NCBI RefSeq assembly: GCF_032854445.1
Contig: NC_088300.1
Span: 77,429,966-77,493,965, forward strand
Direction: 5' to 3'
Length of the DNA: 64,000 bases
Source of the DNA: Liolophura sinensis
Lineage: Eukaryota > Mollusca > Polyplacophora > Chitonida > Chitonidae
Part shown: piece by piece, positions 18,401 to 63,685 of the stretch
Numbering within the stretch: position 1 is the first letter of the stretch
How the letters are laid out: every line of letters starts with the position of its first letter
Notes under the pieces: model-generated
Told to the model about the DNA's origin: nothing
The model's database searches: none
Seen by the model: only the letters and a program-made list of their open reading frames with translations
Program-made: the position numbers and the translations under genes

Positions 18401-21400
18401 ATGGCTGAAGCCAAAGCTGCTGATCAGATGGCAAATCTGTTACCATTGTGCTTTTAATTATAGGCCTAGAATACTGCATCTTATCACTATTCAGTTTCGC
18501 ATAGTTATTTTTGGCTACAGCGATGTTTCCCGTCATGATTAGGAATTTCTCTCACTTACGACAGTGATTATGGGTAGAAGAAACTGTGGAGGCTGGGGTA
18601 ACCACCACCCTTCACAATGTATCTGACAAAATGGCTGACTCACAGCCGCAGCCGCACTTTAACATTAGGACGTCTATGACGTCCGTGGTCAGCGGCCGAT
18701 CGGTTCAGTGCAACGCTTTTGTCAAATGAGTCAGAGAGAGGCCCAATTCAAAATCTTATCAAAGTATAACAGTCTTTGTGCCCAAATGTAACCAGGATCT
18801 ATACTTGGTAAAACATACGATGCTTCTAAATTTATTAAACTTAAATTTATAGTTAAAATATAGCTTTTGTATCCAGACTTGCCCAATATTTACGGTATCA
18901 CGGTTGTCTTCATGCGTCTGCTAGTCGAATTATTTCTTATATAAATGATATTGAAATACACATGGCTGATCGGAGATAATGATCAGCAATGCACCTTGTT
19001 TTGCTCGGGACGTAGACACGTGTCCATGTTGATGATTGTCACATATGTATGTGTATATGGTAACAATAACGGAGTAATCTGGCTAAGGAAAGAAAAGCTG
19101 GGGAACAGTCAGTCATTTTCACCACATGGTTCACTAAATATCAACTCCTGTAGGGTGGAAAGGATAATTTATTTGGGTGATTTGTAGGCCTACATGTATA
19201 TAAAAAGAGAACAGGCATTCACGGTCACTTTATTTATGGACTCTGATATAAGGCATCGATAGGTGGATAAGCAAAGAGCCACCCAAAGTCGAAGTCAGTT
19301 GCTGGACTGGACCCTCCCAGAGACATGGTACCTCCCACGGTTCTTTAAATTGCATATATGAGTATGTGACAACAGTAATTGGGAAGCATATGAGCAGTCT
19401 CTATATTTTTTATCAGCGCCTTATGCGGAGGGAAGCACATGGGCAATCTCTATATTTTTTATCACCGTCTTATGAGGTGGGAAGCACATGGGCAATCTCT
19501 GTATTTTTTATCACCGTCTTATGAGGTGGGAAGCACATGGGCAATCTCTGTATTTTTTATCAGCGCCTTATGGGGTGGGAAGCACATGGGCAATCTCTAT
19601 ATTCTTTATCAGCGCTTAATGAGGTGGGAAGCACATGGGCAATCTCTATATTTTTATCAGCGCCTTATGCGGAGGGAAGCACATGGGCAATCTCTATATT
19701 TTTTATCAGCGCCTTATGAGGTGGGAAGCACATGGGCAATCTCTCTATTTTTTATCAGCGCCTTATGAGGTGGGAAGCACATGGGCAATCTCTGTTTTTT
19801 TATCAGCGCCTTATGGGGTGGGAAGCACATGGGTAATCTCTATATTTTTTATCAGCGCCTTATGAGGTGGGAAGCACATGGGCAATCTCTATATTTTTTA
19901 TCAGCGCCTTATGCGGAGGGGAACACATGGGCAATCCCTGTATTTTTTATCAGCGCCTTATGAGGTGGGAAGCACATGAGCAATCTCTATACTTTTTATC
20001 AGCGCCTTATGAGGTGGGAAGCACATGGGCAATCTCTGTATTCTTTATCAGCGCCTTATGAGGTGGGAAGCACATGGGCAATCTCTCTATTTTTTATCAG
20101 CGCCTTGTGGGGTGGGAAGCACATGGGCAATCTGTATTTTTTATCAGCGCCTTATGAGGTGGGAAGCACATGGGCAATCTCTGTATTTTTTATCAGCGCC
20201 TTATTGGGTAGGAAGCACATGGGCAATCTCTCTATTTTTTATCAGCGCCTTATGGGGTGGGAAGCACATGGGCAATCTCTCTATTTTTTATCAGCGCCTT
20301 ATGGGGTGGGAAGCACATGGGCAATTTCTATATTTTTTATCAGCGCCTTATGCGGAGGGAAGCACATGGGCAATCTCTGTATTTTTTATCAACACCTTAT
20401 GGGGTTGGAAGCACATGGGCATTCTCTGTATTTTTTATCAGCGCCTTATGAGGTGGGAAGCACATGGGCAATCTCTATATTTTTTATCAGCGCCTTATGC
20501 GGAGGGAAGCACATGGGCAATCTCTATATTTTTTATCACCGTCTTATGAGGTGGGAAGCACATGGGCAATCTCTCTATTTTTTATCAGCGCCTTATGGGG
20601 TGGGAAGCACATGGGCAATCTCTATATTTTTTATCAGCGCCTTATGCGGAGGGAAGCACATGGGTAATCTCTATATTTTTTATCAGCGCCTTATGAGGTG
20701 GGAAGCACATGGGCAATCTCTCTATTTTTTATCAGCGCCTTATGCGGAGGGAAGCACATGGGCAATCTCTATATTTTTTATCAGCGCCTTATGCGGTGGG
20801 GAGCGCATGGGTAATCTCTATATTTTTTATTAGCGCCTTATGGGGTGGGAAGCACATGAGCCGTCTCTATATTTTTTATCAGCGCCTTATGAGGTGGGAA
20901 GCACATGGGCAATCTCTGTATTTTTTATCAGCGCCTTATGGGGTGGGAAGCACATGGGCAATCTCTATATTTGTTTCATCAGCGCCTTATGGGGCCGTTT
21001 TTACACATTATCTCATGCACACGCCCTTTTTACACATTATCCCATACCTACGCCGTTTTTACACATTACCCCATGCATGCACTCTTTTTACACATTATCC
21101 CATTCATACGCCGTTTTCACAGATTATCACATACATGCACTGTTTTGACACATTATCCCATTCATACGGCGTTTTTACACATTATCCCATGCATGCACCG
21201 TTTTTACACATTCTCCCATTCATGCGCCGTTTTCACAGATTATCCCATGCAAGCACTGTTTTTACACATTCTCCCATGCATGCACCGCTTTTACACACAG
21301 TATCCCACGCATGCGCTACTTTTTCTCACTTGATCCGATGCAAACGCCATTTTACACATGATGCTATGTATGCCCCGCTTATACACACTTGATCCAATAT

Positions 21401-23908
21401 GGATGCCTTGATTTTAATCACTTGATCCTAATAGCATATGCAATTTTTACAGGTTTTTACACACGTAATTCGATATAGCCTCTATACTTGTGGGATCCTC
21501 TACGTTTTTACACACATAATTCGATACAGCCTGTAGTCTATACTTGTGGGATCCTCTCCGTATATATATGCACGGTGAAGCGTAAACATTTGGGAGTAAA
21601 AGTGTATTACAGTACACATTGAAAAACATTGAGAAAATAATTCAGAAAATGTGCCAATGACTGTATATTAATTTGGTTCTTATTAACCAGAGACAGCTGC
21701 GTTTTCACCTTTGTTACCTTTAACTAAAACATGTGGACCACTGTTAAGCATCGCATTCTTTTCACAAAAACTGTAGCGCATTGTAGGTTTAGGGATCATC
21801 GTTTGTACAGCAGGTTTTACGTAATAAAACGATGTCCAACCGATAAACTGCCTCCTGGTTCCACGGGGTTCTATATGCTGAGACTTATGTTATTTTACTG
21901 TACATTAAAGATGCCAGTGCAGTGCCTGCGGAAAAACATTCCCTCTCTAGGAAATAGATGTCCCAAACCATAATACTTTCACGAGGCCGTTTTGAACATC
22001 TGGTGGATGTAGATTTTGATTATTTGATTTATTTCATTGGTGTTTTACGCTGTACTCAAGAATATTTCACTTATATGACGGGCAGAGCTGGGGGAAAACC
22101 CACGACCGGATGTAGATTTTGTGTCCTATCACTGAGCCCTTTTTGGAGACTTGATGGATGTTGATGTAGATTGTGTGTCCTATCACTGAGCCAGTTTGGG
22201 GACTTGATGGATGTTGATGTAGAATTTGTGTCCTATCACTGAGCCCTTTTGGAGACTTGATGGATGTTGATGTAGATTTTGTGTCCTATCACTGAGCCCT
22301 TTTCGGAGACTTGATGAATGTTGATGTAGATTTTGTGTCCTATCACTGAGCCCTTTTGGAGACTTGATGGATGTTGATGTAGATTTTGTGTCCTATCACT
22401 GAGCCAGTTTGGGGACTTGATGGATGTTGATGTAGATTGTGTGTCCTATCAATGAGCCCTTTTGGAGACTTGATAAATGTTGATGTAGATTGTGTGTCCT
22501 ATCACTGAGCCAGTTTGGGGACTTGATGGATGTTGATGTAGATTTTGTGTCCTATCACTGAGCCCTTTTGGAGACTTGATGGATGTTGATGTAGATTGTG
22601 TGTCCTATCACTGAGCCCTTTTGGAGACTTGATAAATGTTGATGTAGATTGTGTGTCCTATCAATGAGCCATTTTGGAGACTTGATGGATGTTGATGTAG
22701 ATTTTGTGTCCTATCACTGAGCCCTTTTGGAGACTTGATGGATGTTGATGTAGATTGTGTGTCCTATCAATGAGCCCTTTTGGAGACTTGATGAATGTTG
22801 ATGTAGATTGTGTGTCCTATCAATGAGCCATTTTGGAGACTTGATGGATGTTGATGTAGATTTTGTGTCCTATCACTGAGCCCTTTTGGAGACTTGATGG
22901 ATGTTGATGTAGATTTTGTGTCCTAATAATGAGCCATTTTGGAGACTTGATGGATGTTGATGTAGATTTTGTGTCCTATCACTGAGCCCTTTTGGAGACT
23001 TGATGGATGTTGATGTAGATTTTGTATCCTATCAATGAGCCCTTTTGGAGACTTGATGGATGTTGGGTCTGAGTTCAAACGCCAAGGCATTTTTTGTTCA
23101 ATTTATAAAACACATATGTTAGAACTGCAGAGTGCGAAAGTAAAGACACTGGGCTAGTCCCAAGGCTATTACAGAAAGATATGAGTGCATCAGCTCTGCA
23201 TTGTATACGAGGCGATATGTGAAGTTAAGGTCCACATCTACGCTCCGGAAGCGCGGAAGAGCTGTGCTATGGTTGTATTCCCTAATCACTAGTGCTGTGG
23301 TATACAGTTGTGATTGTGGATATCGCATCTAGCGAGAATTGGCACCAAATTATATATTTTTTTCAAAGCAAGTAGCCTCAATATTATTCTAATTTTGATA
23401 CACATACTATATAGCGTGTGGCTCTCAAAAGGATGTAACTCATGCAGTCGTCATTTCGCACTGACCGTTTACAGAAGATAAGGCGTTAAGAGATGCGAAT
23501 CAACAACTGTAAATTAATGTATAAACATCACACTACACCAGGAAACACGGACAAACGGTAACCTGTATTTGGTCAAAATGTCCTGCAAAAAGAAGATCTG
23601 AAGACCTTCAGGTTTCAGTTTCCACTTTTTTTTTTGTTTATCAGTGGTTCAGACAAATCGAACTTATGTCAGTTACGGCTATCTGTACATCATTTTTCTT
23701 TTCACTTGTGTAAAATTCACCTTGTAGAATATCGATACAATCTGATTTGTTTTATATCTCGCATCAAAGATGGCTAGTGTGTTGCTAACCACTTTCATAA
23801 ATCCAAACGTAGACATGTCAAATAAAAAGCGAAAAGGAGATGCGTCCACATATCAAAGCCCTTTACATACCTTCTCAAGAGAGGATCCCTAGTCAGTGTC
23901 CGTGCCAT
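490..23908 (-). CDS. Chitin synthase, N-terminal 817 residues (10 exons, 3' part beyond left edge)
   Basis: Makes chitin from UDP-GlcNAc at the plasma membrane (family knowledge). Exons in transcript order: 23908-23871, 7494-7413, 6768-6437, 6125-5930, 4713-4588, 3878-2785, 2034-1792, 1513-1431, 961-859 and 643-490. All have GT/AG ends and matching phases, giving 817 residues before the edge. Residues 1-150 are a hydrophilic Ser/Arg/Pro-rich cytosolic tail. The QPFWDIF segment (from about 152) opens the membrane region, and exons 4-6 hold many hydrophobic segments, including WWVSSIWITAHIW. Exon 7 has CATMWHE (684-690), exon 9 AHIFFDDSMDM, and exon 10 TPYGGRLEWTL and KIRHRKRWSQ. These are the signature start of the metazoan GT2 chitin synthase domain; the later catalytic motifs lie outside the window. 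Exons 3-10 are secure. Exon 2 is likely. Exon 1 (ATG at 23908, giving MARTLTRDPLLR) is inferred from its donor and phase across a 16-kb intron. No N-terminal myosin motor, known in some molluscan homologues, was seen. Confidence 0.93.
2785..3878 (-). CDS. Chitin synthase exon 6, multi-pass membrane region
   Basis: This 1,094-bp exon is the largest in the gene and encodes residues 259-622 plus two bases of 623. It starts after CTCACAG with VLLLETFHSAGQTFF, a segment conserved in animal chitin synthases. It continues through alternating hydrophobic stretches and a soluble loop with several Asn-X-Ser/Thr sites (NNSS, NISLL). It ends with IWTPDNERLAFVNR before the donor GTGGGT. Its end phase (AG) joins the next exon to rebuild the conserved VNR-LFVIP junction. 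Confidence 0.93.
4200..4400. mobile_element. MITE-like dispersed repeat fragment
   Basis: This contains palindromic TTAACGTTA blocks and two GCTTCGYGAAAC blocks. It ends in CGAAACCGGGCCCAG, which resembles the ends of the short inverted-repeat element at 30025-30154. It lies in a chitin synthase intron. Exact ends are uncertain. Confidence 0.4.
4819..5000 (+). repeat. Dispersed repeat family, copy 1 of 3
   Basis: It shares CATTCGTATACTAGCC, TCAATAATCGCAAGGCCAAT and GACGGAATCATGCAAA-type blocks, in order, with the copies at 8066-8280 and 17929-18150. All three copies have the same orientation and all lie in introns of the chitin synthase gene. No coding capacity or terminal repeats are evident, and the family is not recognised. 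Confidence 0.7.
7495..8065. other. Start of chitin synthase intron 1, no feature seen
   Basis: AT-rich sequence directly upstream of exon 2. Nothing recognisable beyond the exon 2 acceptor region. Confidence 0.5.
8066..8280 (+). repeat. Dispersed repeat family, copy 2 of 3
   Basis: Collinear with the copies at 4819 and 17929: ACATTCGTATACTAGCC, AATAATCGCAAGGCCAATTC, AGGACGGAATCATGCAAA, AGTCAACAGTTTTCAATGAT. It directly abuts the 28-bp minisatellite. Confidence 0.7.
8295..9893. repeat. Minisatellite, ~28-bp unit, ~57 copies
   Basis: The unit consensus is about GTGCTAGACTGGATCACTGA plus AGTAGTAT. Copies at the left are more diverged (TACTAGACTGCATCA variants). The middle, about 9060-9640, is nearly homogeneous, as expected for recent expansion from the centre. 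Higher-order blocks recur, such as the GGAAGAATGTGCTAGAC variant and the shortened unit GTGCAGGACTAGAAG. It lies in chitin synthase intron 1. Confidence 0.97.
9896..11465. other. Intronic stretch between two minisatellites
   Basis: Unique-looking sequence with no assignable gene. A stretch at about 10545-10755 reads on the plus strand like diverged coding sequence (FDNEQKELIASVVKKM) but is broken by in-frame stops. A T-run sits near 10787. Confidence 0.4.
11466..12821. repeat. Minisatellite, 76-bp unit, ~18 copies
   Basis: Each unit contains GGAGCCACAATAGACGACAA, CACGTTTACCAGCATTCACA and AGACTGTGTGACACGTGGTG blocks. About ten units carry a CACGTG palindrome, which is CACATG in others. The last unit is diverged after GTGTGAG. 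It lies in chitin synthase intron 1. Confidence 0.97.
12822..16329. other. AT-rich intronic stretch
   Basis: No gene recognised. It holds a single-ended match near 13187-13225 to the MITE end at 58.24 kb (CACAAAGCAGTCTTTGAATT), a TATCGATA-rich block at 14360-14560, a 33-bp local duplication (ATTAAATATCTAGGTGAGGA) at 14827-14895, and a C-run at about 15498-15508. Confidence 0.4.
14360..14560. repeat. Degenerate TATCGATA / TAATTTATTT repeat block
   Basis: Roughly nine diverged units of 20-25 bp alternate TAATTTATTT with ATCGATATCGATAA. Several perfect TATCGATA palindromes are visible. This is too decayed to give a clean period. Confidence 0.6.
17451..17725 (-). mobile_element. tRNA-type SINE, full-length
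   Basis: On the minus strand the head carries an A-box-like TGGCTCAGTTAGG and a B-box-like GAGTTCAAGTCC. The conserved body follows, and an AAATAAATAAAT tail ends at the left. It is flanked by direct repeats GTGGTCAAGA at 17441-17450 and 17726-17735. The head is tRNA-derived, so RNA polymerase III transcription is inferred. Confidence 0.92.
17929..18150 (+). repeat. Dispersed repeat family, copy 3 of 3
   Basis: Collinear with the copies at 4819 and 8066: AACATTCGTACACAAACC, GTCAGTAATCGCAGG, GGACGGAATCCTGCAAAA, CAGTCAACGGTTTTCAATGA. It lies inside the inverted-repeat spacer. Confidence 0.7.
18163..18253 (-). mobile_element. tRNA-type SINE, truncated, internally deleted
   Basis: The tail (TATTTATTTATTTATTTG in plus orientation) and proximal body are intact up to TCACTTATACGACGGG. 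It then jumps to GGAAAACCCACGACCATCCG, so about 45 bp of the body are missing. The head is absent. Confidence 0.75.
19381..20993. repeat. Minisatellite, 49-bp unit, ~33 copies
   Basis: The unit is about GGGAAGCACATGGGCAATCT plus CTATATTTTTTATCAGCGCC plus TTATGAGGT. Sub-variants (GAGGTGGG, GGGGTGGG, CGGAGGGA) recur in patterns, suggesting block amplification. All three forward frames stay open for long runs because 49 is not a multiple of three. The resulting long reading frames are judged artefacts of the repeat. Confidence 0.97.
20994..21400. repeat. Minisatellite, ~29-30-bp unit, ~14 copies
   Basis: The unit is TTTTTACACATTATCCCATG plus CATGCACCG. It starts immediately where the 49-bp array ends (CGCCTTATGGGGCCG joins straight into TTTTTACACATTATC). 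Copies toward the right are increasingly diverged. Confidence 0.93.
21440..21570. repeat. Two-copy ~57-bp tandem duplication
   Basis: The blocks TTTTTACACACGTAATTCGA and CTATACTTGTGGGATCCTCT occur twice in order. It continues the TTTTTACACA theme of the preceding array. Confidence 0.8.
22019..22107 (-). mobile_element. tRNA-type SINE, 5'-truncated with target-site duplication
   Basis: Headless copy with tail at the left and body to AAAACCCACGACC. It is flanked by a perfect 14-bp direct repeat GGATGTAGATTTTG (22005-22018 and 22108-22121). The duplicated target is itself part of the 53-bp minisatellite unit, so the insertion hit the edge of that array. Confidence 0.88.
22108..23062. repeat. 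Minisatellite, 53-bp unit, ~18 copies
   Basis: The unit is TTTTGGAGACTTGATGGATG plus TTGATGTAGATTTTGTGTCC plus TATCACTGAGCCC. Variants CACTGAGCCAGTTTGGGG and CAATGAGCC alternate in groups. It lies in chitin synthase intron 1. Confidence 0.97.
23063..23870. other. Intronic stretch, no feature seen
   Basis: Unique-looking sequence between the 53-bp array and the candidate first chitin synthase exon. Nothing recognised. Confidence 0.4.
23871..23908 (-). CDS. Candidate first coding exon of chitin synthase
   Basis: On the minus strand an ATG at 23908 opens twelve codons reading MARTLTRDPLLR. They are followed by AG and a good donor (GTATGT). The two-base overhang exactly fits exon 2 (7494), which needs one base, giving DPLLRRHSYPTLQ across the junction. 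The call rests on phase, donor quality and a natural reading; no transcript evidence is visible. It implies an intron of about 16.4 kb. Confidence 0.5.
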
Positions 23909-28414: not shown

Positions 28415-29017
28415 TTATCGCCTGGTTCTTCGTCGTGTGGTTCTCTTCCTGCGGATAGGCCGCCTCCTCAATCGCCTACGAGGAGAACGGACTTTCCTCG
28501 TACGGCGAGCCTTCTTGCTCTTGGCGGCTCGTCGCACTCGCCTCCTTCGGCGCATTGTTGTCTTTTTGGCTGCCTTCTTGGCTACCTTTCGTCGTCGGCG
28601 CCTAGTCATTCTTCTCATTCGCTTGGGAGAACGACGCCTTCTGGTCCTCCGACGTTTGCCACTGCTCCTCATTCTCCTACGTCGGAGCGCCGGGCCGCCG
28701 CGGGACAGTCGGAACTTGCCAGTTGTTCCGATGCCCCTAGCATTTCGCATCAGCATGCCATGCTTAACGGCAGCCCGTAGTGCAAACTTGAGCCTACTGT
28801 TCACTTGGGATTCCGAGGCTGTTCCCATGTCGTAGTTGGCCATGATGTAGTTCAGGATCTTCTGTCGGGATGACCCGTTTTTGTCCATGAGGTAGGTCAG
28901 GGCTGCTGTGATCATCTCCTTGTACGAGGGATGATCGCCCGTTACTGTCACTCCCATCTTCCGTCTTCGCCTTACGGGGGAGCGACTCGGGGTTTTCGCG
29001 CGGGGCGAAATGGGCAT
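28415..29017 (-). CDS. Sperm-specific H1-like (protamine-like PL-I type) nuclear protein
   Basis: A chromatin-packing protein of sperm nuclei, inferred from family resemblance. It is a single exon of 200 residues. Residues 1-20 are a basic tail with SPRAK and SRSPVRR motifs. Residues about 28-105 form the linker-histone winged helix (SYKEMITAALTYLMDKNGSS, then RQKILNYIMANYDM and LKFALRAAVKHGML). Residues 106-200 are an arginine-dominated tail with RRRSPKR and RSPRRR motifs and a short KVAKKAAKK island. A globular H1 domain with an Arg-rather-than-Lys-rich tail is the hallmark of molluscan PL-I proteins, placed between H1 and true protamines. The start follows a short leader below a TATA box. 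The 3' end has a histone stem-loop. It lies alone between chitin synthase and PLK1, all on the minus strand. Somatic H1 is excluded by the tail composition. Confidence 0.93.
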   Translation of the reverse strand: MPISPRAKTPSRSPVRRRRKMGVTVTGDHPSYKEMITAALTYLMDKNGSSRQKILNYIMANYDMGTASESQVNSRLKFALRAAVKHGMLMRNARGIGTTGKFRLSRGGPALRRRRMRSSGKRRRTRRRRSPKRMRRMTRRRRRKVAKKAAKKTTMRRRRRVRRAAKSKKARRTRKVRSPRRRLRRRPIRRKRTTRRRTRR

Positions 29018-29110
29018 CTTCTGGTCGACCAGAAAGGGGGGAATGATTACGTAATCGATTGTTGTATGAATACCCGGGTATTCTCGGCTGTTGTCACCGA
29101 CGACATCAGG

Positions 29111-44186: not shown

Positions 44187-47100
44187 ATGGCGATGTTGGC
44201 AGCCCCTCGCAGAAAACAAAAGTTTTCAATTGATCCAAGGGGTTCTTCTTGGAGTAAAGGTAAATAGCACAAATTATTAAAATGTTAGAAACAAAAACAA
44301 AGTCACTGCCTATCCGTAAGTGATTTTTTTGAAGCGTTACTGTTGAGGAGACAGTATTGTTTTGGTGTCGTTGTTGTTGTTGTCCACGTGGTGTTCGTGA
44401 GTGGAAGAAGAAAGTCCAATCCACCGTGAAACTGGTGATCATTAAGAGCTATTTACTTGTGGCAGATCAATATAGTTTCTGAAAATGTACTTGTTTTATG
44501 AATTTGTGGGGTTGTCATGGGTCGTTTTTGGTTCGGCAAAGCTCAGAACAGGTTAGTTGGTTATGTCGACCACTTGGTTGACATCGAGTGGGAACTTTTT
44601 ACGCGCTTGTGAAGACGCGGTATATGTTCCTTTCCGTCACTCCGACACATTTTGGGCTGTATTACTCCGTAACTGTCGCAAAAGTTTGTGTTGCTCGACT
44701 TAAGGCGATAGTAAAGTGCACAAATTTCCCAGTCCTCCCATATGGAGAGGGGTCTGAAACAGAGAAATAAAAGGAACCAGATCACATTTACCTACACCAC
44801 CAGTTGCCTTATCCACTATGAACATGAAATATATCAACACTGGACCGAAAAAGTATCATTTGAATGCAATTATCTACCAAGTAGATGTAAAAACGCCAGA
44901 GACCACACAGTAACTTAATCAACAGTTACCTATTAAAAAATCACCTCAAAAATTTCTTTGAATTCTAATCTGTGTGATAGACTAGCTCCTTTTTAAATTT
45001 AGGCCTCTTGAATTGAAGCATTAGAGTTTTTGTGAACACCATGTGTGTCTGGATGCCATTTTGTCACAAAATATCATAGCAGCCAAAAACACAATCCTAA
45101 ACTTGCCACGACAACTGTAAATATCATATAATTTACCTGAAAATGCAACCATGTAATCAGACTCATTGCAACTATTCCAGCAGGACTGTCACGACGATCA
45201 CCTCAAGTAACTTCCTTTACTGCCTCACAAAATAATAAAATCAAACAACGTTTACCCACTGTTTTCCTTTTCAGGAAGAATGGCCTGATTGAAATCTTCA
45301 TTTTCTTTTTGACAAGGATAATATTTCAAGAGAATTTATAGGCGATGCACTTTTCAGATTAGTTTCTAGTATACATGTCAGACGCATGATTTTTGATTTT
45401 CTCAAAGGCTTTTTTTTAGATCATATGTGAAATTTCCTTTTACAGACTGAGAGTGACAACCACATAGTAGTATTCCATAATTTATTTATTTACCTGATTG
45501 GTGTTTTATGCTGTACTCAAGAATATTTCACTTATATGACAGCGGCTAGCATTATGGTGGTAGGAAACCAGGTAGAGCCCGGCGGAAACCCACAAACATC
45601 CGCAGGTTGCTGACAGACCTTTCCACTTACGGCTGCTAGTATTCCATAAGCCATTAATGCGTGAAGATTCTGTCTTGATTCAGGACTGTTGAATATGTTT
45701 TAAAATTGATATCATGATCAATTGCAGTGTGTTTAATCAATCTAGGCTGATGCTCTAGGTTTGTAAATTGTCTGGGCTGGTCTTCACACTTCACTGGAAT
45801 GTTGTCCTCAAATACACATAACAATAACTGCAATGTGTGCCAATGTGCTGCAATCATCAGTTTGCAGCATCAACTAGGAGACTAGTTTGAGTTTATATAC
45901 GCGTAGTGATAATTATTTCAATCAATGAAGTATAGTAACGTACAAAATTATTCAACTTTTGTATCTCAAATGGTCGGTAGACACACAAAAAAACTCAATT
46001 TCAGTTTAAAAAAAATCAGCTTTGCTCAGAAAGTGGTGGTTGGTACGTGGAAAAACGACTTCTATGAACCCCTCTTGAGGTTACATTTCTTAAAGGCATC
46101 CATAAATGTCTGAGAGTAATTTCATGTAAATTAATGACATGAACATTTGGCTCAATATACTAATTGCATTTTGACAATATGAATAAGTGGACTAAGAAAA
46201 AATTATGCGGGAAACATTGGTCATGCGACCGCATTTTGACAGGAGTACGTGAATGGTGACAAAGCTAGGCATTATGAAGACATTAGGTGAGTTTGAAAGG
46301 CAAGTTCCATCTAAGTCATCTCCTAAGTACACAGTGCATCATTTATCACTATGAATACAGAAATCGAGCCTTTAGTAAAGGAGTATAAAATAGTTTTGTA
46401 GGTCACACTGGGAAGTTTTACTTTATAATAATAAGTTTATGTGACACAGTTTAATATCTATTGTTCTTTTGCTGTCATTCTAGTGTCCTTCTGTCTGTAA
46501 GCGACTGTCCTCACTTTCTCATCCCCTTTTATTTCATTTATCGACTACAGGAGTTCGTTTTTATGACCCGTTATAATTTCTAATACACCCAAAATTATCT
46601 GAAACAAGCAGTGCATTGAGGAAGTGGCTGTGTGGTCTCTGGCGTTTTTACATCTACTTGGTAGATAATTGCATTCAAATGATACTTTTTCGGTCCAGTG
46701 TTGATTTCATGTTTCATAGTGGATAAGGCAACTGGTGGTGTAGGTAAATGTGATCTGGTTCCTTTTATTTCTCTGTTTCAGACCCCTCTCAATATGGGAG
46801 GGCCGGGAAATTTGGGCACTTTACTATTGCCTTAAGAGTTATGGAACTTGCAACTAGCTTTTTATGTGCAAGTTCACCATGTGTAATTTTAGTGCGTGTG
46901 AAGCAGACTATTGGGATTTGTAAGGCTGGGGGTGCTGTCTGAAGTCCGCTCATCCAAGAAGATGCTTTCCACATTGCACATCTGAATTGGAGGTCACCAA
47001 CTAACAATAGACAGCACCCTAGTCTTTACAACAACCCAGACTATTTTTCATGATGTTCGTCTGGCAGAAAGATTTTAAAATGGAGAATTTGATTTGACTG

Positions 47101-50100
47101 ATTTGAACTGAACAGATACAAATGGTGATCCAGCAAAAGAGCAGTCCCATTGGCTAAGGTTTGACAGTTGGAAAACTATCAGGTAGAAAATATTACATAG
47201 ATTCTGAGGGTGGAAAAAATCCTGAGAGTTTTGAGAATGGACCTCTGTTAGATGTATCATTGTTATACATCTACTTCATTTGTCTAACCACTGGTTTTCC
47301 TTCTGGCACATTTTAGATAACCCCAGGCATCCATTTTAATCATGAAATGTTTATAAGCATATATTCCAATGACAAGCTCAGCATTGAGAGGTTAGAGCAA
47401 GGAAACATGACTGGTTGGCTCGGTGTCTGTATTGTGAATGGGTGAGGTGCCAGTGTATTGTGAATGGGTGGGGTGCCAGTGTATTGTGAATGGGTGGGGT
47501 GCCAGTGTATTGTGAATGGGTGGGGTGCCATGTCTGGTGTCTTTGACATGATGTCTTCCAGTTCGGCCAGATTATGTACAGGTGGATCCCTTGCTTGAAC
47601 ATGACGACCATCTGGCTTAATTGGGAGCTGCCTTGCAAGAGGAATGGTAGAGGCTACCCCTTCAGAGTACCTGAAGGCTGACAGGTGGTATGAGCAGGGT
47701 TCAGCTTCTGATATTCACATGAAACACTTTGGGAGATATGTTTTGGTTGAGTAATTTCATCCACTGTTTCAACACTGCTCACTCCAGAACCATACTTGTA
47801 AAGCCATTGTTTCACATAAAAGACCAGTGATCATAGAAATGCATGTGTGTTATTCAAACACATAGATTCCAATCATTCTGTAGTTTTTTATTAGCCAAAG
47901 GGTCGCAACCAATCACATTTTACACTCTTTTGATACAGAAAAACGTCAATCGCATGAGTACAAAATCGCCTCGGTGAAAACCAGAGGCTTGCTTAATAAG
48001 TTCTCTGTGTATACTGTAGTGGTGATAGCACTTTGGTGGCATGGAGTCACCCTGCCACAAGAAGACACAATGTATCTGTGTAGTGGTGATAGCACTTTGG
48101 TGGCATGGAGTCACCCTGCCACAAGAAGACACAATGTATCTGTGTAGTGGTGATAGCACTTTGGTGGCATGGAGTCACCCTGCCACAAGAAGACACAATG
48201 TATCTGTGTAGTGGTGGTAGCACTTTAGTGGCATGGAGTCACCCTGCCACAAGAAGACACAATGTATCTCCGTAGTGGTGGTAGCACTTTGGTGGCATGG
48301 AATCACCCTGCTACAAGAAGACACAATGTATCTGTAGTGGTGGTAGCACTTTGGTGGCATGGAGTCACCCTGCCACAAGAAGACACAATGTATCTCTGTA
48401 GCGGTGATAGCACTTTAGTGGCATGGAGTCACCCTGCCACAAGAAGACACAATGTATCTGTGTAGTGGTGGTAGCACTTTGGTTGCATGGGGTCATCCTG
48501 CCACAAGAAGACACAATGTATCTCTGCAGTGGTGATAGCACTTTGGTTGCATGGGGTCATCCTGCCACAAGAAGACACAATGTATCTCTGTAGTGGTGGT
48601 AGCACTTTGGTGGCATGGAGTCACCCTGCCACAAGAAGACACAGTGTATCTCTGTAGTGGTGGTAGCACTTTGGTGGCATGGAGTCACCCTGCCACAAGA
48701 AGATGCAATGTATCTCTGTAGTGGTGGTAGCACTTTGGTTGCATGGGGTCACCCTGCCACAAGAAGACGCAATGTATCTCTGTAGTGGTTGTAGCATGGA
48801 GTCACCCTGCCACAAGACAAAATGTATCTACACACACCTAAAGACTCCTCATTGTCATGTGACTGAAAAATTGTTAAGTATGACATTAAAGCCCAAGCAT
48901 ACATACATATACATATATTACCCTGACAACTTCAAGCTAATAACAGAATGAACAGGAAGACAGTGAAACAGCATTCGGAAAAAGTTTGGTTATCGTCTCA
49001 TCATGAATAGAAGATCTCCATGTTGCGGATGATATCAAATAAATAATATATTATCCACATGCCCCAGAATACTGTCTGGAATTATTGTCTGATGTGAATT
49101 TTCTTAATAAACCTCAGATGAGACTAAATTTGGACAGAAGATGTTGGAAAAGATGGGCTGGTCTAAAGGCCGAGGTTTGGGGGTCAATGAAGATGGAAGA
49201 ACTGAACATGTGAAGATATCCCTGAAAGATGACACAAGAGGTAGGAAGTGATAATAAAGAGTGACAGTAGATTTGTATAACACTGTGGCTCTTCTGACAG
49301 GTGACCAGTGCAAGGTTGTGAAATATTTATCTGACCTTTTTAACTTCAGTGTACATGCACTGGATAAATTACCAGAATTGCTCCTCATATACAGGTCTTC
49401 GAGGAGTCTACTTAATGTATGCATTCCTTATATTAAGTTGAAAACTGTCTTGTTGAAAAGCTCCTCTACCTGGTAATACTGGTAATAACTTGTCCGTGAT
49501 ACACAGTTGTAAATTGTCTGATGGTCTATCAGACAGTGTATACTTATGTTCACCCTTCAGGCTTCATGTACAAAACAGTAAAGAAAATTTAATACCAAAC
49601 CACATAAATTTTTCATGATGAACATAAACCAAATTGTCAGCTGTTTGCAGTTTGTGATTCTCCACACTTAAAAATTATGCATGTTTTTTTAGGGGTTGGA
49701 TGTAGCAAAAGTCTGGCTGATAACTGGATCTCACATCAAGACGATTTCAACAGCCTGCTGGCCAGTTTAAACCAGAACGGTATGAACACAGAGCCCGATG
49801 CCGTGGATAACGCCAAGGTTTGGAGTCTGGAGGCAAAGTCTAAGTCCTCTAAAGGCAGACTTCAGTAAGTAGACATGGTAGTCTGGAGGCAAAGTCTAAA
49901 TCCTCTAAAGGCAGACTTCAGTAAGTAGACATGGTAGTCTGGAGGCAAAGTCTAAATCCTCTAAAGGCAGACTTCAGTAAGTAGACATGGTAGTCTGGAG
50001 GCAAAGTCTAAATCCTCTAAAAGGCAGACTTCAGTAAGTAGACATGGTAGTCTGGAGGCAAAGTCTAAATCCTCTAAAGGCAGACTTCAGTTCTTCAGCT

Positions 50101-53100
50101 TATCTGCTCACAAAATTAAAGTTGAGGATTAAATAAATTTAACCATTTGTAGGGGATGTGATTATTTACACTGCATGGCCTAACAATTACCACTAGTCTG
50201 GCATTTTGTCATTTCGATCTGATCGGTTGGGCCGTTAAGGTGGTCAGTTGGTGACTTGGGAAAAAATACCAGCCCAGGCCATGTTTCAAAATTCAGAAAG
50301 TTTACCTGTCTGCCTGTCACGACAGCCAGCTTACAAAGTACAGGCGCAGCTTATGTCGTACCTTGAGCATCAGCGTCCAATAAGAGGGAAGGCAATGTTA
50401 AACAAAATGTTATGAGTAGGATCTTAAAAAGTACTGCTCGTGTAGAGGACAATAACATGAGGGGGATATTCCATCTTTGATTCGGAGTGTGCATATTGAA
50501 TACTGTAAATTACTGAATTTCTGATTTAAAATAAATGAATGAAAAATTATGGCTTAATTCCGCGTCAGCAATTTTTCAGCCATGGCGGAACAAGATTAAA
50601 ACAGGAGTCTCCTGACTTACTGTTTTTTGTTTTAAAATGTATGTTAAACAAAATGTTAGGGATGGTACCTCAAAAAGTACAGCACGTAGTGGCCTGAAGT
50701 GTTTCATGCATATAAAGCACAATGACACAAGGGGTATGTTCCATTGCTGATGCTCTGTCATATTTTCTTAAACACATGTTTTCATATGACCAAAATTACT
50801 ATACAAACTCTTGATTTCATTTCCTTTGTTACTTCTTTGTAGGAGATGATGAGATAAATTCCAGATAAAACCTGTGTGCATGTGTTCCTGGATAGAACTA
50901 CAACTACATTGTAGTTTAGGGGAATTGACTCTTCTCATACTCAACTAGTTATTATAAACATGAACCAGAAAAAAAATACCCCACCTCACCTCAACTCTAT
51001 TGAAAATTAAAATCTGTTAATTTGTTTTCAGAGATTTTCCAATGTATTTCTTCAGTTAAAATGTTGATCTCTTTGGTGGCACAGGTACAGTAGTTCTAGT
51101 GGGCATGGTAAGAATTGCGCTAATTAACGCAAACTTCACTCAGAGTTCACAGACTTATTTTGTTTTCTGATTCCAGCTATCAGAAGTTCACCAGGGGAAA
51201 GGATCTTTCCTCTCGAAAACTGGAAGATTTGGATTGTATCTTTGGCAGGAGAAAGAATAAAGCGTTGAAAGAGGTTGAATATTATTCACATCAATTTATT
51301 AGAGGAGAAAAAAATTTAAATATCAATCAAAAACCATTGAAAAGTGTATGTTTTTCCTCACAGGTGCATGCCATAAAAAAATTCTAATATGTACCTCAAG
51401 TTGATAAATTATAAATAAAGTCATCGCCAAAATCTGCTGTGGGCAACTCCATTTTGCCTAAGAACTAGTCCTGAAGTCTTCTGTGTTAGGAGGAGAATTG
51501 CCGTCGGAAACCGCCGAAGTGCAGTTCGTACATTTCCGGTAGAGTTCTTCTTCCCAGAAGGTAGCAAACAGTGCAGTTTATTTTCCACTTGACGATCGGG
51601 AAACTTGAATGTTGGACGTAGGTTCCGAGTTTACACGAACAAACCGGCAGTTTTAATGACTCTTGGCTGAGAGGCAGCACACCCCCAGCATAAATTACAG
51701 GCTGTTAAAGATAGAGGACAGGATGGACTCAGCAATTTAGGCCAGCTTTGCCGTTTTCAGGCTTGACGTGTATGGCAAGGAAAAATGACAAAATTATGCA
51801 GCAGGCACCACCAGATAGAAAAAAATGTGCTCTTTTCAGCCAATAGTGTCATGTTTTTAGGTTTTCTTCTCCTTTAAAGTCATAAAAATAATGCTGACAT
51901 GTTCTGAATTGTATTGATTCAGTTAATATATTTAAGAACTTTGTAAAAGAAATCCCTGGCTTTGTGGCTAAGTGTATTATAGTGGTGGTGTGAATGACCA
52001 TTGTCCTTCTGGGCACTTGCCGTATTTTCTTATATCAGGACATAACGCTGCCATTTCACTACTAGTTGAGCATTGTATACATGTATTCATATGTGGTGCA
52101 AATTCTTAATTGAGTAAATAAATATTCATTTGCAGAAGACAAAATCAGTTGTAGAGGAGAACCTTACCTCCTTGCCTGAATCAGTGGATTCACCTGCTGA
52201 GCAGTATGGGGTACAGACATTTGAAAGTACAGACAGCATTCAGGGATACTTTGCCAGGAAAATGGCTAAACTGGATTCCAGCAAGAGGACAAACATTGTG
52301 AGTGAAATATGCAGAATAAGTTGCGTTGCCAAAGATAGAGATAAACCAGAAGATTATTCGTTCTGTTTCAGTTAGGATTGACCTCAATTTTAAGATTTAA
52401 ATATAGTATGATTAGTTAACTGCAGTATCTGACCTTATATTAATCCTCTTTCAAGTGGTACATTTTGCTGGATTCTGACTGATCCGCACACCTTATAAAG
52501 TCACTTAAAGTCTTTTGTGGTGAAGATTGATTGATTTCTTATTCTAAAAACTTAACAGCTTGCTTCAAAAGTATTATTTTAAGGCCTTTATGTTTTTCTT
52601 TAAGTTTATTTTTATGCACCAAACTTTAGGCAATATGCAATAGTAATTCTTAGTGGCTTGTAGATCTTAACTGAAATAAGTTGTATCCTGACTTAAATGT
52701 TGTCTCAGCTGTCCATAAACCAAGGTCCCTTTCAGTGAGGGAATAAAACACAGGCTAGATAAGGATACAAAATGGGACAGTAAATGTAACTGGTGCATTG
52801 GCAAGTTATGGCATTTTGTTTGGGCTTAGTACATGTTTTCCTTAATATTTATTATTAAATTTATAGTTAATGGCAATTAGTTGTTGGTTTTTCAGATTGT
52901 TTATTTTGGAATATATTCCTATATGGCTTTCCTGTTTTTGTACATAGGAGGTGAATGGGGCAGGAGGAAAGGATAATGAAGTGAAGGCACAGGAGCAGGG
53001 AAGTGAAAACCTGGGACTGGGAATTAAAACCTATAGTAGTTCACAAAGTGTTCAGGATTATTTTGCTCAGAAGATGGCAAAGCTGAAGAAAGAGAGGCTG

Positions 53101-54063
53101 AGTTCTGACGTGAAAGCATCAGACGCCAGCTGTGAGTCTGTAGTACCATTAACAGAAGAACCGGGCGACAAGCCTGTCAAAAGACAGAAGAAAAAGAAAA
53201 AGCGAAAACAGAGCTGTGACGAGAAATCTGGAGAACCTGTAGAAAAGAAAAAGGAGAGAAAAATTACTGTCGATTCTGAAGGTACATTACACAAGTTGTC
53301 TTGTGAGACATTAACTAAGGAGAGTGATGTTGAAAGCAATAAAAAGAGAAAGAAGGATAAGAAAAAGAGGGAGATTGATAGTGATGTATCAACAAATATT
53401 TTTTTGGACACTAAAAATAAAAAGGTAGTTTCAAATAAAAATTTAAATCACATGCCACAAGAATTGTCTGCTCCAGTCAAAAGGGATATGGACAGTAGAA
53501 AAAGGATTAGGTTTAGAGATCCTCTTTCCTCAGCCCTAGGGGAGACAACCCTACAGGGTTCTATTGAGACTTTTACAGATGAAATCACTAAGGCTGAAGA
53601 TCCTGAGGAGAAAATTGGAACTTCAGAGACAATGGTAGTGGTTAAAACCCCACAGGTTATGAACACTGAAGAGCATTCTGAAATTGGTGCACATTCACCA
53701 AAGAAGAAAAGGTCCAAGAAAAAAGCAAAGCATAAAGATGTAAGTGAGCAGATACACATGTCTGAGAAAGTGGATAGAAGTAATATCCCTGCTCCTGAAG
53801 AAAACAGTAAAGGGTCCGCTTTTCAGGAAGATTGTGTCAATAATACAGAAAATTCCAAGAATGGAGACAAAGCAAATGCTAGCAAGAAGAGGAAAAAGAA
53901 AAAGGAAAAACGGACTTCAGAGGCCAGAGAAAGGCTGATGAAAAAAAGAAAATATATATTGGACTGTGGCAAATTTAAGATTATTGAGACCGGATTTACA
54001 GGGTCTAATCTTGATCAAATCCCAGGGTATTCCAACAGCAGCCTTTTGTTAAAGACTTCATGA
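44187..54063 (+). CDS. PINX1: PINX1 (Pxr1/Gno1) G-patch nucleolar protein (6 exons)
   Basis: In vertebrates it binds TRF1 and restrains telomerase; the yeast homologue acts in rRNA and snoRNA maturation with helicase Prp43. Exons: 44187-44259, 49118-49240, 49693-49864, 51177-51273, 52136-52297, 52948-54063; all phases agree, giving 580 residues against 328 in human. The start MAMLAAPRRKQKFSIDP matches the family N-terminus. The G-patch spans about 26-70 (FGQKMLEKMGWSKGRGLG). NWISHQDDFNSLLASLN and YQKFTRGKDLSS, then DLDCIFG, follow as in other PINX1 proteins. The long Lys/Arg-rich tail accounts for the extra length. The motif SIQGYFARKMAKL (189-201) recurs as SVQDYFAQKMAKL (243-255). The exon 3 donor sits in a tandem duplication. 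The exon 4 donor is weak (GAG|GTTGAA); a better one at 51364 (CAG|GTGCAT), also in frame, would add 30 residues. Confidence 0.95.
44701..46837. repeat. Inverted repeat pair, arms ~210 bp, spacer ~1.7 kb
   Basis: The left arm 44701-44909 and right arm 46627-46837 are reverse complements with only a few differences. Example: CAGATCACATTTACCTACAC on the left and GTGTAGGTAAATGTGATCTG on the right. The inner boundary is CCAGAGACCACACAG; the outer begins TTAAGGCRATAGTAAAGTGC. No coding sequence lies between the arms, only a truncated SINE and unassigned sequence. Confidence 0.93.
45481..45636 (-). mobile_element. tRNA-type SINE, 5'-truncated with target-site duplication
   Basis: Tail and proximal body present, tRNA head absent. 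Perfect 13-bp direct repeats TAGTATTCCATAA flank it (45468-45480 and 45637-45649). It lies between the arms of the 44.7/46.8-kb inverted repeat. Confidence 0.92.
47427..47530. repeat. 26-bp tandem repeat, ~4 copies
   Basis: The unit is about TGTATTGTGAATGGGTGGGG plus TGCCAG; three copies are nearly identical. It lies in PINX1 intron 1. Confidence 0.92.
48016..48800. repeat. Minisatellite, ~62-64-bp unit, ~12-13 copies, derived from a dispersed repeat
   Basis: The unit is GTAGTGGTGATAGCACTTTG plus GTGGCATGGAGTCACCCTGC plus CACAAGAAGACACAATGTAT plus CTGT. On the minus strand it reads TCTTCTTGTGGCAGGGTGAC, then CCAAAGTGCT. This parallels TCTTCTCGTGGCAGGGCGAG, then CCAAAGTGCTGG, inside the dispersed repeat at 31545-31590. 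The parent element's end lies just to the right. Confidence 0.93.
48801..48905 (-). mobile_element. Second dispersed repeat family, copy 3 (end)
   Basis: On the minus strand: TATGTATGCTTGGGCTTTAA, then ATACTTAACAATTTTTCAGT and CACATGACAATGAGGAG. This matches the start of 31430-31790 and continues into the minisatellite unit. Confidence 0.75.
49818..50090 (+). repeat. 56-bp tandem duplication of PINX1 exon 3 end and 5' splice site, ~5 copies
   Basis: The unit is GTCTGGAGGCAAAGTCTAAA plus TCCTCTAAAGGCAGACTTCA plus GTAAGTAGACATGGTA. Donor GTAAGT occurs at 49865, 49921, 49977 and 50034 (periods 56, 56, 57). The fifth copy reads CAGTTCTTC and lacks it. The first copy is the coding one and differs by AAG for AAA. 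Confidence 0.97.
50100..51176. other. PINX1 intron 3
   Basis: AT-rich. Apart from the 50.5-kb repeat fragment, two short stretches resemble each other (near 50400 and 50650: AACAAAATGTTATGAGTAGG / AACAAAATGTTAGGGATGGT), suggesting a decayed local duplication. Confidence 0.5.
50525..50590 (+). mobile_element. Fragment of a third dispersed family
   Basis: AATGAATGAAAAATTATGGC, then TTAATTCCGCGTCAGCAATT and TTTCAGCCATGGCGG. Related to 24604-24660 and 42051-42125. Lies in the PINX1 intron between exons 3 and 4. Confidence 0.5.
51274..52135. other. PINX1 intron 4
   Basis: Contains the possible 30-codon exon 4 extension (51274-51363). No other feature seen. Confidence 0.5.
52298..52947. other. 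PINX1 intron 5
   Basis: AT-rich, bounded by strong GTGAGT and CATAG signals. It separates the two exons that look like duplicates. No other feature seen. Confidence 0.6.
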
Positions 54064-54095: not shown

Positions 54096-54445
54096 AGTGC
54101 TTGCCCTGTTGTACCAGTAACAGATTGGAGGGCTGGCCCTGCCTTCTAAGTGCACAAGTGAGTTAGTAATGTTACATGGTTGTACCAGTAGCAGATTGGA
54201 AGGCTGGCTTTGTCTGCTGAGTGCACAAGTGAGTTAGTGATGGTACATACATATCAATAACACTAAACAGATTGGAGAACTGTCACACTCTGAGTGCACA
54301 AGTGAGTTAGTAATGTTCCATGGTTGTACCAGTAACAAATTGGAGGGCTGACACTGTGTTGAGTGCACAAGTGAGTGAATTCTATTACATGCATGGTTGT
54401 ACCAGTAACACATTGGAGGGCTGGTTCTATCTGTTAATGATTAGT
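54096..54445. repeat. ~75-bp imperfect tandem repeat in the PINX1 3' UTR, ~4.5 copies
   Basis: The blocks TTGTACCAGTAACAGATTGG, AGGGCTGG and AGTGCACAAGTGAGTTAGTA recur four to five times with substitutions and small indels. Confidence 0.9.
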
Positions 54446-58475: not shown

Positions 58476-59020
58476 TAGCCCATGTAATCTGTACCTACAA
58501 TACATCTGGTCAGCCCATGTAATCTGTACCTCCAATACATCTGGTCAGCCCATGTAATCTATACCTCCAATACATCTGGTCAGCCCATGTAATCTATACC
58601 TCCAATACATCTGGTCAGCCCACATAATCTGTACCGACAATACATCTGGTCAGCCCATGTAATCTGTACCTACAATACATCTGGTCAGCCCATGTAATCT
58701 GTACCTACAATACATCTGGTCAGCCCACATAATCTGTACCTACAATACATCTGGTCAGCCCATGTAATCTGTACCTACAATACATCTGGTCAGCCCACAT
58801 AATCTGTACCTACAATACATCTGGTCAGCCCATGTAATCTGTACCTACAATACATCTGGTCAGCCCACATAATCTGTACCTACAATACATCTGGTCAGCC
58901 CATGTAATCTGTACCTACAATACATCTGGTCAGCCCACATAATCTGTACCTCCAATACATCTGGTCAGCCCATATAATCTATACCTCCAATACATCTGGT
59001 CAGCCCATGTAATCTGTACC
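58476..59020. repeat. Minisatellite, 35-bp unit, ~15 copies
   Basis: The unit is CAGCCCATGTAATCTGTACC plus TACAATACATCTGGT. CACAT and CATGT variants alternate in the centre, indicating a two-unit (70-bp) amplification step. It starts 22 bp from the MITE-like element. Confidence 0.96.
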
Positions 59021-60771: not shown

Positions 60772-61503
60772 ATCCTTTGGCTATCACACAGCCTGGGCGA
60801 TACACCCAGAGGTACGCCCTTTAGCTATCACACAGCCTGGGTGATATGATGGGAGGTACACCCTTTAGCTATCACACAGCCTGGGCGATACACCCAGAGG
60901 TACGCCCTTTAGCTATCACACAGCCTGGGTGATATGATGGGAGGCACGCCCTTTAGCTATCACACAGCCTGGGTGATATGATAGGAGGTACACCCTTTAG
61001 CTATCACACAGCCTGGGTGATACGATGGGAGGTACACCCTTTAGCTACCACACAGCCTGGGTGATATGATAGGAGGTACACCCTTTAGCTATCACACAGC
61101 CTGGGTGATATGATGGGAGGTACACCCTTTACTTATCACACAGCCTGGGTAATATGATGGGAGGTACACCCTTTAGCTATCACACAGCCTGGGTGATAAG
61201 CCCAGAGGTACGTTCTTTAGCTATCACACAGCCTGGGTGATACGATGGGAGGTACACCCTTTAGCTATCACACAGCCTGGGTGCTATGATAGGAGGTACA
61301 CCCTTTAGCTATCACACAGCCTGGGTGATATGATGGGAGGTACACCCTTTAGCTATCACACAGCCTGGGTGATAAGCCCAGAGGTACATTCTTTAGCCAT
61401 CACACAGCCTGGGTGATACGATGGGAGGTACACCCTTTAGCTATCACACAGCCTGGGTGATACGATGGGAGGCATAGTCTTTAGCTATCACACAGCCTGG
61501 GTG
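60772..61503. repeat. Minisatellite, ~43-bp unit, ~17 copies, overlapping the stop codon of the proline-rich gene
   Basis: The unit is TTAGCTATCACACAGCCTGG plus GTGATATGATGGGAGGTACA plus CCC. The last copy contains the final codons (RLCDS, stop) of the gene on the minus strand. GATGGGAGGTACACTCTGAG at 61531-61550, further into the coding exon, matches the other half of the unit. Confidence 0.95.
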
Positions 61504-63685
61504 GAACTGGGGGAGGGCCTCGGCGTGTGGGGATGGGAGGTACACTCTGAGGTTCCTCGTCTGTGCCCACTGCACTCATGTTTGGCCGAGTGGGAACTGG
61601 GGGTGGTGCCCAGTCACTGAACTTGGCCTCTTTTGAGAACAGAAAATCATCATTCTTGGTAAAGTTATCAACATCGCCATCAGGGGGAGGAGGTGGGGGG
61701 CTGGTGGGACAGGTTATGTCTTCTGGAGGGGTGGGAGGTGGTTGTCTGGTGGGACATGCCATGTCATCTGGAGGGGTGGGAGGCGATGGGCTCATGGGGC
61801 TTGCCATGTCCGATGGAGGCGTGGGAGGTGGGGTAGAACCAGGAGATCCAATATCACTGCCATTAGTTACCGTTACCACTGCATCTGAGGCACTGGTGTT
61901 GGGGGGCTTTGATGGGGGGTGACCAGGAACTGGGGGTGGTGGTCCTCGCGACACAGGCACATTGTTTCCAAATGCAGGACCTGAGACAGGAGGCACACTT
62001 GGCACAGGAGGCGGGGTGCCTCTGACAAACACGCTCTGAGGTCGGCTTGCTGGCTGGGGTACCTGCCTGCTGCACACAGGTTCTATGGTGCTGACTATGT
62101 TCCTACGTGGTGTGGGTACAGGTCTTGCCACATCTGTGGACTGATCGACACCGTTCTCGGCTGTGGACGACAGGTTCTGAACACTGTTAAATCTGGGAAC
62201 TGCTTTGGGAGCCTCCAAGGAATCTGGAGCAACTCCCTCACCTGCCACATCTGTACTTGTCTTGCTTCTGGGGAGAGGCTTAGGACCAAAGGTGGGCACA
62301 CCTGCCAAAATCAACACACAGAAAAGTGTGAACAATACGAAGCTTTGCTCATCAACACTCATCCACCCTGGAAGTTACTGTAAACGGGCCTTGAGAAAAT
62401 TCCCTGCATTACTGAAAACTAACGACTTCTTCTTTCTATATATTATTTCTTACATATTCCTTTGGGAACTGGTGCTATAGGTTGTTTGGGAAATGGGTCT
62501 AGCTATTATCCACTTGGAATTGTGTTACTGGTAACTAGAGCTGATGAGTGAAATATTCTGTCTCATCAGAGGTCTACCTACCATAATATTGGTGACACTC
62601 CCCAGTCTGTTCATGTACTGGCTTTGGCTCAGAGCTTTTGGAGATGACCAGTTGACAAGTGCAAAGTGTTTCACACAGGTATAATCATTCATTTCATGGA
62701 GGTAAAATACAGTACTCACAGTGCCTTGTGCACATTTCAATTTAGAGAGTAGGTCAAAGGTCAGTAGTGTGGATTCAAATTTAATCTGGTTGGCAGTGAG
62801 CTGTATTGAAATTGTCTGAGTATATTTGGAAAGGAGCATTTTAAGTAAACAATCTTAAAATACCTGAATACATTATTATTCCTTACAATCATACATATTT
62901 TTGATAGGCTTCCTACCCAACAGCAGACAGAACAAGTATACCAAATTTGAAGAACAAATATGAAATAGTTTAAGAGAGAAGTTCGTCATTAAGTTCATGA
63001 CTACTAGAATACCCTTTATCTTTACCATAGTCAAAGACTCCCCAGGGAAGGTTAAACAGTTAATCACTACTCTGTAAGAATCTTGACCTAGGGAATGTTG
63101 GCATTAGTCTGAAGTGTTACACACTCTAATGCATCCTGTAAAATACAGGCAATATACATCAGCAGCTACCAGGAGAATGTAGATAATGTACCTGTGAGTG
63201 GGCCAGGCTGTAAAGGCTGTGGGAGGCTGTCATCGCTTGCCTGTCCCATCAACTGCTCAATCAACTTCTGAGCCTCACATATATTCCCTGCATGCCCCTG
63301 GTGAGTCACATTTGTGGGAAGTCCTATAGACAGAATCTAAAACACAAAATATATAATGCTAAGTTCACATCAACTATTTTTTCCCCTAAACAGCTGAAAA
63401 TTCCATTCCACAAAGAAATTCAGATATTAAAAAAATACTGTCTGACAAGCAAGACATAAGATCCCATTAAGTCTACAGATAAATTAATCTCCTAGAGAAA
63501 TGGTTGCATATTTAAATTCATTGCAAGATGTGAATTGTAAGCTCTGGGGATAAAAAACAGCACACATATTCGCTAAAGTTATCTTCCTACCTTTTTCTGT
63601 GGGCTAGTGCCAGCCTTCTTTGGCATATTCTGCGGCCTCATTGGGGGCCTCATTGGGGGGCCAGGCTTAGCTGGGGCAGCTTTAC
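61481..63685 (-). CDS. Proline-rich SH3-ligand-type protein, 3' part (3 exons)
   Basis: Not identified to family. Exons: 63685-63591, 63336-63192, 62301-61481; phases agree and further 5' exons lie beyond the right edge. The visible ~353 residues contain no catalytic domain. A short segment EAQKLIEQLMGQ in the middle exon looks helical. The last exon is low-complexity with many PxxP motifs. Examples are RPVPTPRR, APPPVPTRP, GPPPVPPR and four PPPTPP-type repeats spaced by DMA/DIT-C/SP. Such tails bind SH3 domains and profilin (general knowledge), so an adaptor, cytoskeletal or endocytic role is inferred. The acidic/aromatic DDFLFSKEAKFSDW lies between them. The frame ends RLCDS followed by TAA inside the minisatellite. 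Candidate families such as synaptojanin-like or SH3-adaptor tails cannot be told apart here. Confidence 0.8.
62302..63191. other. Intron of the proline-rich gene
   Basis: 890 bp, no recognised element. Confidence 0.6.

Follow-up and report, generated by a model that had tools for sequence, protein, structure and literature searches.

A young minisatellite across the exon 3 splice donor of a predicted PINX1 gene in the chiton Liolophura sinensis

The boundary between exon 3 and intron 3 of PINX1 in Liolophura sinensis lies inside a short tandem array that sets four intact GTAAGT donors before one exon 4 acceptor. We favor, with a probability of roughly 75%, the reading that a young minisatellite grew by accident across this donor, that it has no selected role, and that the additional donors are decoys. 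In support of this passive reading are the 580-aa frame that runs through donor 1, the single locus, the youth of the copies, the richness of the genome in such arrays, and the ordinary folds of the RNA. Counting against it is the fact that an array coinciding exactly with a real donor is rarer than an array as such.

Results

Gene model and identity

Six coding exons were placed by reading frame and splice signals. Coordinates are positions in the window, the whole 64,000-nucleotide stretch of DNA that was analyzed.

44187..44259, + strand: PINX1 exon 1, coding part from the ATG (frame continuity and match to PXR1)
49118..49240, + strand: PINX1 exon 2, which holds the G-patch
49693..49864, + strand: PINX1 exon 3, with the end of the G-patch match and HQDDF; 172 nt with donor 1
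51177..51273, + strand: PINX1 exon 4 (frame and splice signals)
52136..52297, + strand: PINX1 exon 5 (frame and splice signals alone)
52948..54063, + strand: PINX1 exon 6 to the stop codon (frame and splice signals alone; putative exact acceptor)

The exon 6 frame encodes 371 aa and is lysine rich. A Pfam search of the PINX1 product returned the G-patch domain PF01585 at residues 28-69 (E 9.1e-16), the match to G-patch_2 (PF12656) falling under its cutoff, and a PDB sequence search returned yeast PXR1 (8rdy_B) over residues 4-75 (E 3.4e-17), with another G-patch protein as a weaker match. The product thus carries the N-terminal G-patch with a PXR1-like leader that marks the PinX1/PXR1 family (PF01585, 8rdy_B), and, judged by its sequence, the gene is a member of that family; the Pfam and PXR1 matches uphold the original prediction that it is PINX1. 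Proteins of this family also have a telomerase-binding C-terminal part. The residues that exon 4 contributes after donor 1, R-L-H-Y, presumably resemble those of the human PinX1 protein. The chiton protein bears a family likeness to the PinX1/PXR1 (Gno1) G-patch proteins, and nothing in the protein itself is odd; what sets the chiton gene apart from them is its splice site.

We searched a genome of 609,464,459 bases in 632 contigs. The 209 aa encoded by exons 1-5 (exon 6 left out) gave 5 matches in a protein search, which are this gene's five exons, and a nucleotide search with the 408-bp array region gave 1 match; neither search found a second PINX1 copy. Nor did the protein search find a retrocopy or second haplotype that might record splicing, its 5 matches being the five exons at this locus. 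The 609-Mb assembly, some stretches of which read N, contains exactly 4 occurrences of a 25-mer across the donor, all in the array, and 0 of the same 25-mer read backward, so the multiplication of the donor is not a chance event. Within the limits of these searches, we rejected a dispersed repeat or mobile element on the strength of the 1 match for the 408-bp region and the confinement of all four exact 25-mers to the array.

Anatomy and age of the array

The array and the donors that it carries are as follows.

49824..50091, + strand: 56-bp tandem array, 4.8 copies across the exon 3/intron 3 boundary (TRF and copy alignment)
49824..49879, + strand: copy 1, the final 41 coding bases of exon 3 and then 15 intronic bases
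49880..49935, + strand: copy 2, intronic, 56 bp, with the same sequence as copy 3
49936..49991, + strand: copy 3, intronic, 56 bp
49992..50048, + strand: copy 4, intronic, 57 bp through a single additional A
50049..50091, + strand: copy 5, intronic, 43 bp, ending ...CTTCAGT without a donor and matching the other copies over its whole length
49865..49870, + strand: donor 1, GTAAGT, productive, in-frame join to exon 4
49921..49926, + strand: donor 2, GTAAGT, TAA after 123 aa, 52 nt upstream of the exon 3-4 junction
49977..49982, + strand: donor 3, GTAAGT, TAA after 123 aa, 108 nt upstream of the exon 3-4 junction
50034..50039, + strand: donor 4, GTAAGT, TAA 165 nt upstream of the junction; closest donor to the exon 4 acceptor

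TRF gave the 268-bp array a period of 56, 98% matches and a score of 520. With a 56-bp unit, 4.8 copies and 98% matches, it has the tandem, highly alike units of about 10-100 bp that define a minisatellite. TRF and the copy alignment agree with the earlier proposal that the exon 3 end and its donor are tandemly duplicated with a 56/57-bp period, and the four intact GTAAGT motifs lie at the predicted 49865, 49921, 49977 and 50034. The repeat unit consists of 41 exonic and 15 intronic bases; the predicted figure of about 40 coding bases is thus close, and that of 16 intronic bases becomes 15. All four donors have these 41 upstream and 15 downstream bases in common, save for one G/A difference and the additional A. 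On the + strand between 46000 and 56000, the sole further GTAAGT beyond the four array donors is at 53740, within exon 6.

The single-base difference foreseen between the coding copy and the rest is a G in copy 1 for an A in copies 2-5 (AAG/AAA, synonymous). Among copies 2-5 (56, 56, 57 and 43 bp), the alignment has 0 substitutions and one 1-base indel, from which we conclude that the array is young; the rule of three puts the divergence among these copies at less than about 1.4% per site. Copies this young would not yet have diverged, so that their intact donors are uninformative about selection. The G/A difference is accounted for by one change, in copy 2 or in copy 1, that preceded the amplification of copy 2, and the homogenization of the intronic copies that had been suggested is not needed. 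On this account, a stretch reaching from 41 bases upstream to 15 bases downstream of the exon 3 donor would have been duplicated in tandem, copy 2 would then have been amplified into the intron, and the last copy would have lost its 3' end along with its donor. The duplication junction cannot be reconstructed, since copy 5 is truncated and the original intron bases after +15 do not adjoin the array.

The published Liolophura japonica assembly, whose species was later corrected to L. sinensis (PMC12441733), was built, according to the excerpted text of its report, from HiFi reads with a mean of 8,347 bp at 14x, with haplotigs purged and a heterozygosity of 1.24% (PMC11068029). A second allele would go unseen, since haplotigs were purged from the assembly. 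It is extremely improbable that the animal has a single copy and the assembly an artefactual five: the 268-bp array is far shorter than the mean read, and the copies can be told apart by two positions and by their length. The array should be correct as assembled, given its unique flanks and HiFi reads that far exceed it.

Consequences of each donor for the reading frame

Conceptual splicing of donor 1 to exon 4 gave a continuous frame of 580 aa. Donors 2, 3 and 4, joined to the same exon, gave an identical 123-aa product ending ...KGRLQ, read from CTT CAG TAA, just as predicted for the sequence beyond the first donor. Exon 3 would be 172 nt long with donor 1 and 228, 284 and 341 nt long with donors 2, 3 and 4. 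A stop codon well upstream of an exon junction leads to nonsense-mediated decay. Here 52, 108 and 165 nt separate the stops from the exon 3-4 junction, well downstream of them, and two further junctions follow; decay is therefore expected for the transcripts of donors 2-4. Where splicing is coupled to such decay, the alternative site is also used, in a regulated or conserved way.

The claim that the frame survives at the first donor alone is true of direct joins of exon 3 to exon 4; on paper, a route through a micro-exon is also in-frame. In that route, donor 1 is spliced to a GGCAG in one of the later copies (GGCAG, then ACTTCA, then GTAAGT), and the 6-nt exon is spliced to exon 4, giving 582 aa in frame (+2 aa). 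The four later GGCAG sites would all be in-frame, the introns measuring 50, 106, 163 and 219 nt; the 6-nt ACTTCA is followed by a donor in copies 2-4, and copy 5, which bounds the 219-nt intron, has no following donor. An intermediate in intron or exon evolution could be imagined from this, with splicing inside the array adding two residues through the ACTTCA micro-exon. The in-frame GGCAG sites and the 582-aa product argue for it, and new introns are known to arise by tandem duplication, as the excerpted text of PMC4974935 has it; set against these are the difficulty of defining a 6-nt exon and the pyrimidine content before the array GGCAG sites (9 of 20), low though equal to that of exon 5. 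The acceptors of exons 2-6 have 12, 11, 16, 9 and 14, so that the array sites are lowest in the set, tied with exon 5. We regard this intermediate as very improbable.

The arrangement of donors and stops also invites a functional interpretation, in which the number of decoy donors would set the share of PINX1 transcript sent to decay and would be used for tuning. Such a splice attenuator would draw on identical donors, on an immediate in-frame TAA in every extension, on the distances of those stops from the junction with more junctions beyond, and on the argument, made for Drosophila in the excerpted text of PMC2809761, that nonsense-mediated decay acts as a backstop or shield for imperfect new splice arrangements. 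We nevertheless judge it improbable, as there is no selection signal in copies too young to test for one, no RNA structure beyond chance, and no donor in copy 5, and such arrays arise freely in this genome. A copy-number-tuned version, in which each repeat adds a decoy donor and natural length alleles set the PINX1 dose, is likewise a long shot; if true, attenuator length alleles would set traits of telomeres or of rRNA processing in a mollusc with a long life.

Against shuffles, single units had fold energies of z -0.85 to -1.18, a stretch centered on the boundary had z -0.91, and the whole 508-nt region had z 0.13 (50 of its 100 shuffles were equally stable). Within each unit, AGTCTG and CAGACT are able to pair. 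We rejected an RNA structure that masks donors, since the array folds no better than its shuffles, and at none of these three scales (units, boundary stretch, 508 nt) was there a sign of a switch.

Possible competition among the donors

Under the passive reading, donors 1-4 would compete, and with surroundings this nearly identical, position and splicing factors would decide between them. Donor 1 would be used often enough to supply PINX1, and transcripts from donors 2-4, with a TAA after 123 codons, would be removed by nonsense-mediated decay; the copy number of the array may vary between individuals.

The opposite outcome is that the donors nearest the acceptor win and most transcripts decay, so that the assembled allele would be hypomorphic or a recessive null, maintained in the population by its normal partner. 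Near-identical contexts mean that position decides, and donors 2-4 are unproductive. Classical duplicated-donor experiments have reportedly been connected with an intron-proximal preference. For competing donors, the excerpted text of PMC5585400 has SRSF1 favoring the site proximal to the intron and hnRNP A1 favoring the distal one. If a proximal choice of the SRSF1 type prevailed here, it would fall on donor 4, which is unproductive, and the allele would be strongly damaged and close to null, which is a counterpoint to the passive reading. The heterozygosity and purged haplotigs of the assembly, in which the other allele is unseen, would also suit such an allele (PMC11068029, excerpted text). 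Against it, the distal preference of hnRNP A1 would point to donor 1, and exon size would favor donor 1 as well: donor 4 would lengthen exon 3 from 172 nt to 341 nt, which exon definition should disfavor. A loss-of-output allele is, in our view, unlikely, though we retain it as a rival.

Tandem arrays in the window and the genome

The window contains 25 tandem arrays covering 10,221 bp (16% of its length); of these, the array at 49824-50091 alone has three or more GTAAGT. Three of the others, found by TRF, lie in or next to PINX1.

47428-47530: array in PINX1 intron 1
48014-48796: array in PINX1 intron 1
54108-54428: array 45 bases past the PINX1 stop codon

Large minisatellites of the window, with 28-76 bp units and 12 to 57 copies, lie at 8296-9892, 11465-12822, 19380-20991 and 22109-23065, and further ones at 48014-48796, 58477-59020 and 60774-61503.

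In a 200-kb sample of the same scaffold, made up of 20 evenly chosen 10-kb pieces of that one scaffold and so not a random sample of the genome, 63 arrays (period 10-200, merged) covered 11.2% of the sequence, and 2 of the 63 held at least three GTAAGT. Array content was uneven along the scaffold: four of the 20 pieces (L002, L017, L019 and L021) accounted for 16,265 of the roughly 22,500 array bases; three of these pieces lie toward the scaffold's 3' half and one lies near its start.

Genome-wide, three GTAAGT spaced 36-66 nt apart occurred at 11,067 places, a count to which one array contributes many. With a chance expectation of roughly 17 for uniform bases, nearly all of these triples come from arrays, and given their number, a donor-bearing array as such is not special. 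The ready-made splice switch of the original prediction is unsupported, because the donors are intact through youth and arrays of repeated GTAAGT are common in the genome. Its alternative, a hazard, holds as a possibility, given the multiplied donor and the consequence for the frame.

The backward hexamer TGAATG, spaced in the same way, occurred at 21,373 places, against 11,067 for GTAAGT, and as single hexamers in the 200-kb sample, GTAAGT occurred 152 times and TGAATG 187 times. The deficit of spaced GTAAGT may be a hint that arrays bearing donors are avoided, but with one control and several counts per array the point is uncertain, and we draw nothing from it.

Other reading frames in the window were noted in passing. 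A frame at 28421-29110 on the - strand has a linker histone H1/H5 domain (PF00538, E 3.8e-20) and a long arginine-rich tail, and we take it to be reminiscent of sperm protamine-like proteins. A proline-rich frame without a Pfam match at 61487-62374 (- strand) has a 45-bp tandem array inside it, at 61682-61833, which could change length without harm to the frame, 45 being a multiple of three. A hydrophobic 434-aa frame lies at 2673-3974 (- strand) and has no Pfam match at E 0.001.

Discussion

The chiton array shares with minisatellites (VNTRs) a short head-to-tail unit, near-identical copies, and a genome with many of them, but it differs in spanning the end of a coding exon and its donor. In the excerpted text of PMC12783039, the intronic minisatellites described lack splice-site copies. 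Among the literature matches listed, none reports a natural minisatellite that multiplies a donor, which is not proof that none exists.

Intron gain by tandem duplication offers a second comparison. In the AGGT model, a tandem duplication lets an exonic AGGT supply both the 5'-GT and the 3'-AG, and the cases given are ATP2A1, the fission yeast genes SPOG_01682/SOCG_00815, and a potato RdRp; in the fission yeasts, multicopy 24-bp arrays have introns that extend over two or four of the copies, and in potato an intron-exon structure was copied (PMC4974935, excerpted text). The likeness, as far as that text goes, is an in-gene duplication of a segment with splice signals, in several copies in the yeast cases. 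The chiton's 56-bp unit, however, contains no AGGT, having instead CAGTAAGT across the exon-intron boundary, and it straddles an existing boundary and multiplies donors only. The array is outside the AGGT class, yet the event behind it is of the same kind, in a variant form.

Competing 5' splice sites are a third point of reference. Intron 4 of DOK7 has two different donors 11 nt apart, of which the proximal one is productive (PMC5585400, excerpted text). The two genes are alike in offering several donors to one acceptor, with a full or a truncated protein as the outcome, as far as that text describes DOK7; the chiton differs from it in having four donors, 56-57 nt apart, in near-identical context and made by a repeat.

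If the array is real in animals, it would be a natural counterpart, in one conserved gene, of the laboratory duplicated-donor experiment. Its four donors in near-identical context give a plain readout, full length versus TAA, and RNA from one animal would reveal which donor position wins in a mollusc. Length alleles, if there are any, would relate donor choice to the number of sites. The array would also show that a minisatellite-rich genome can endanger the splicing of a gene.
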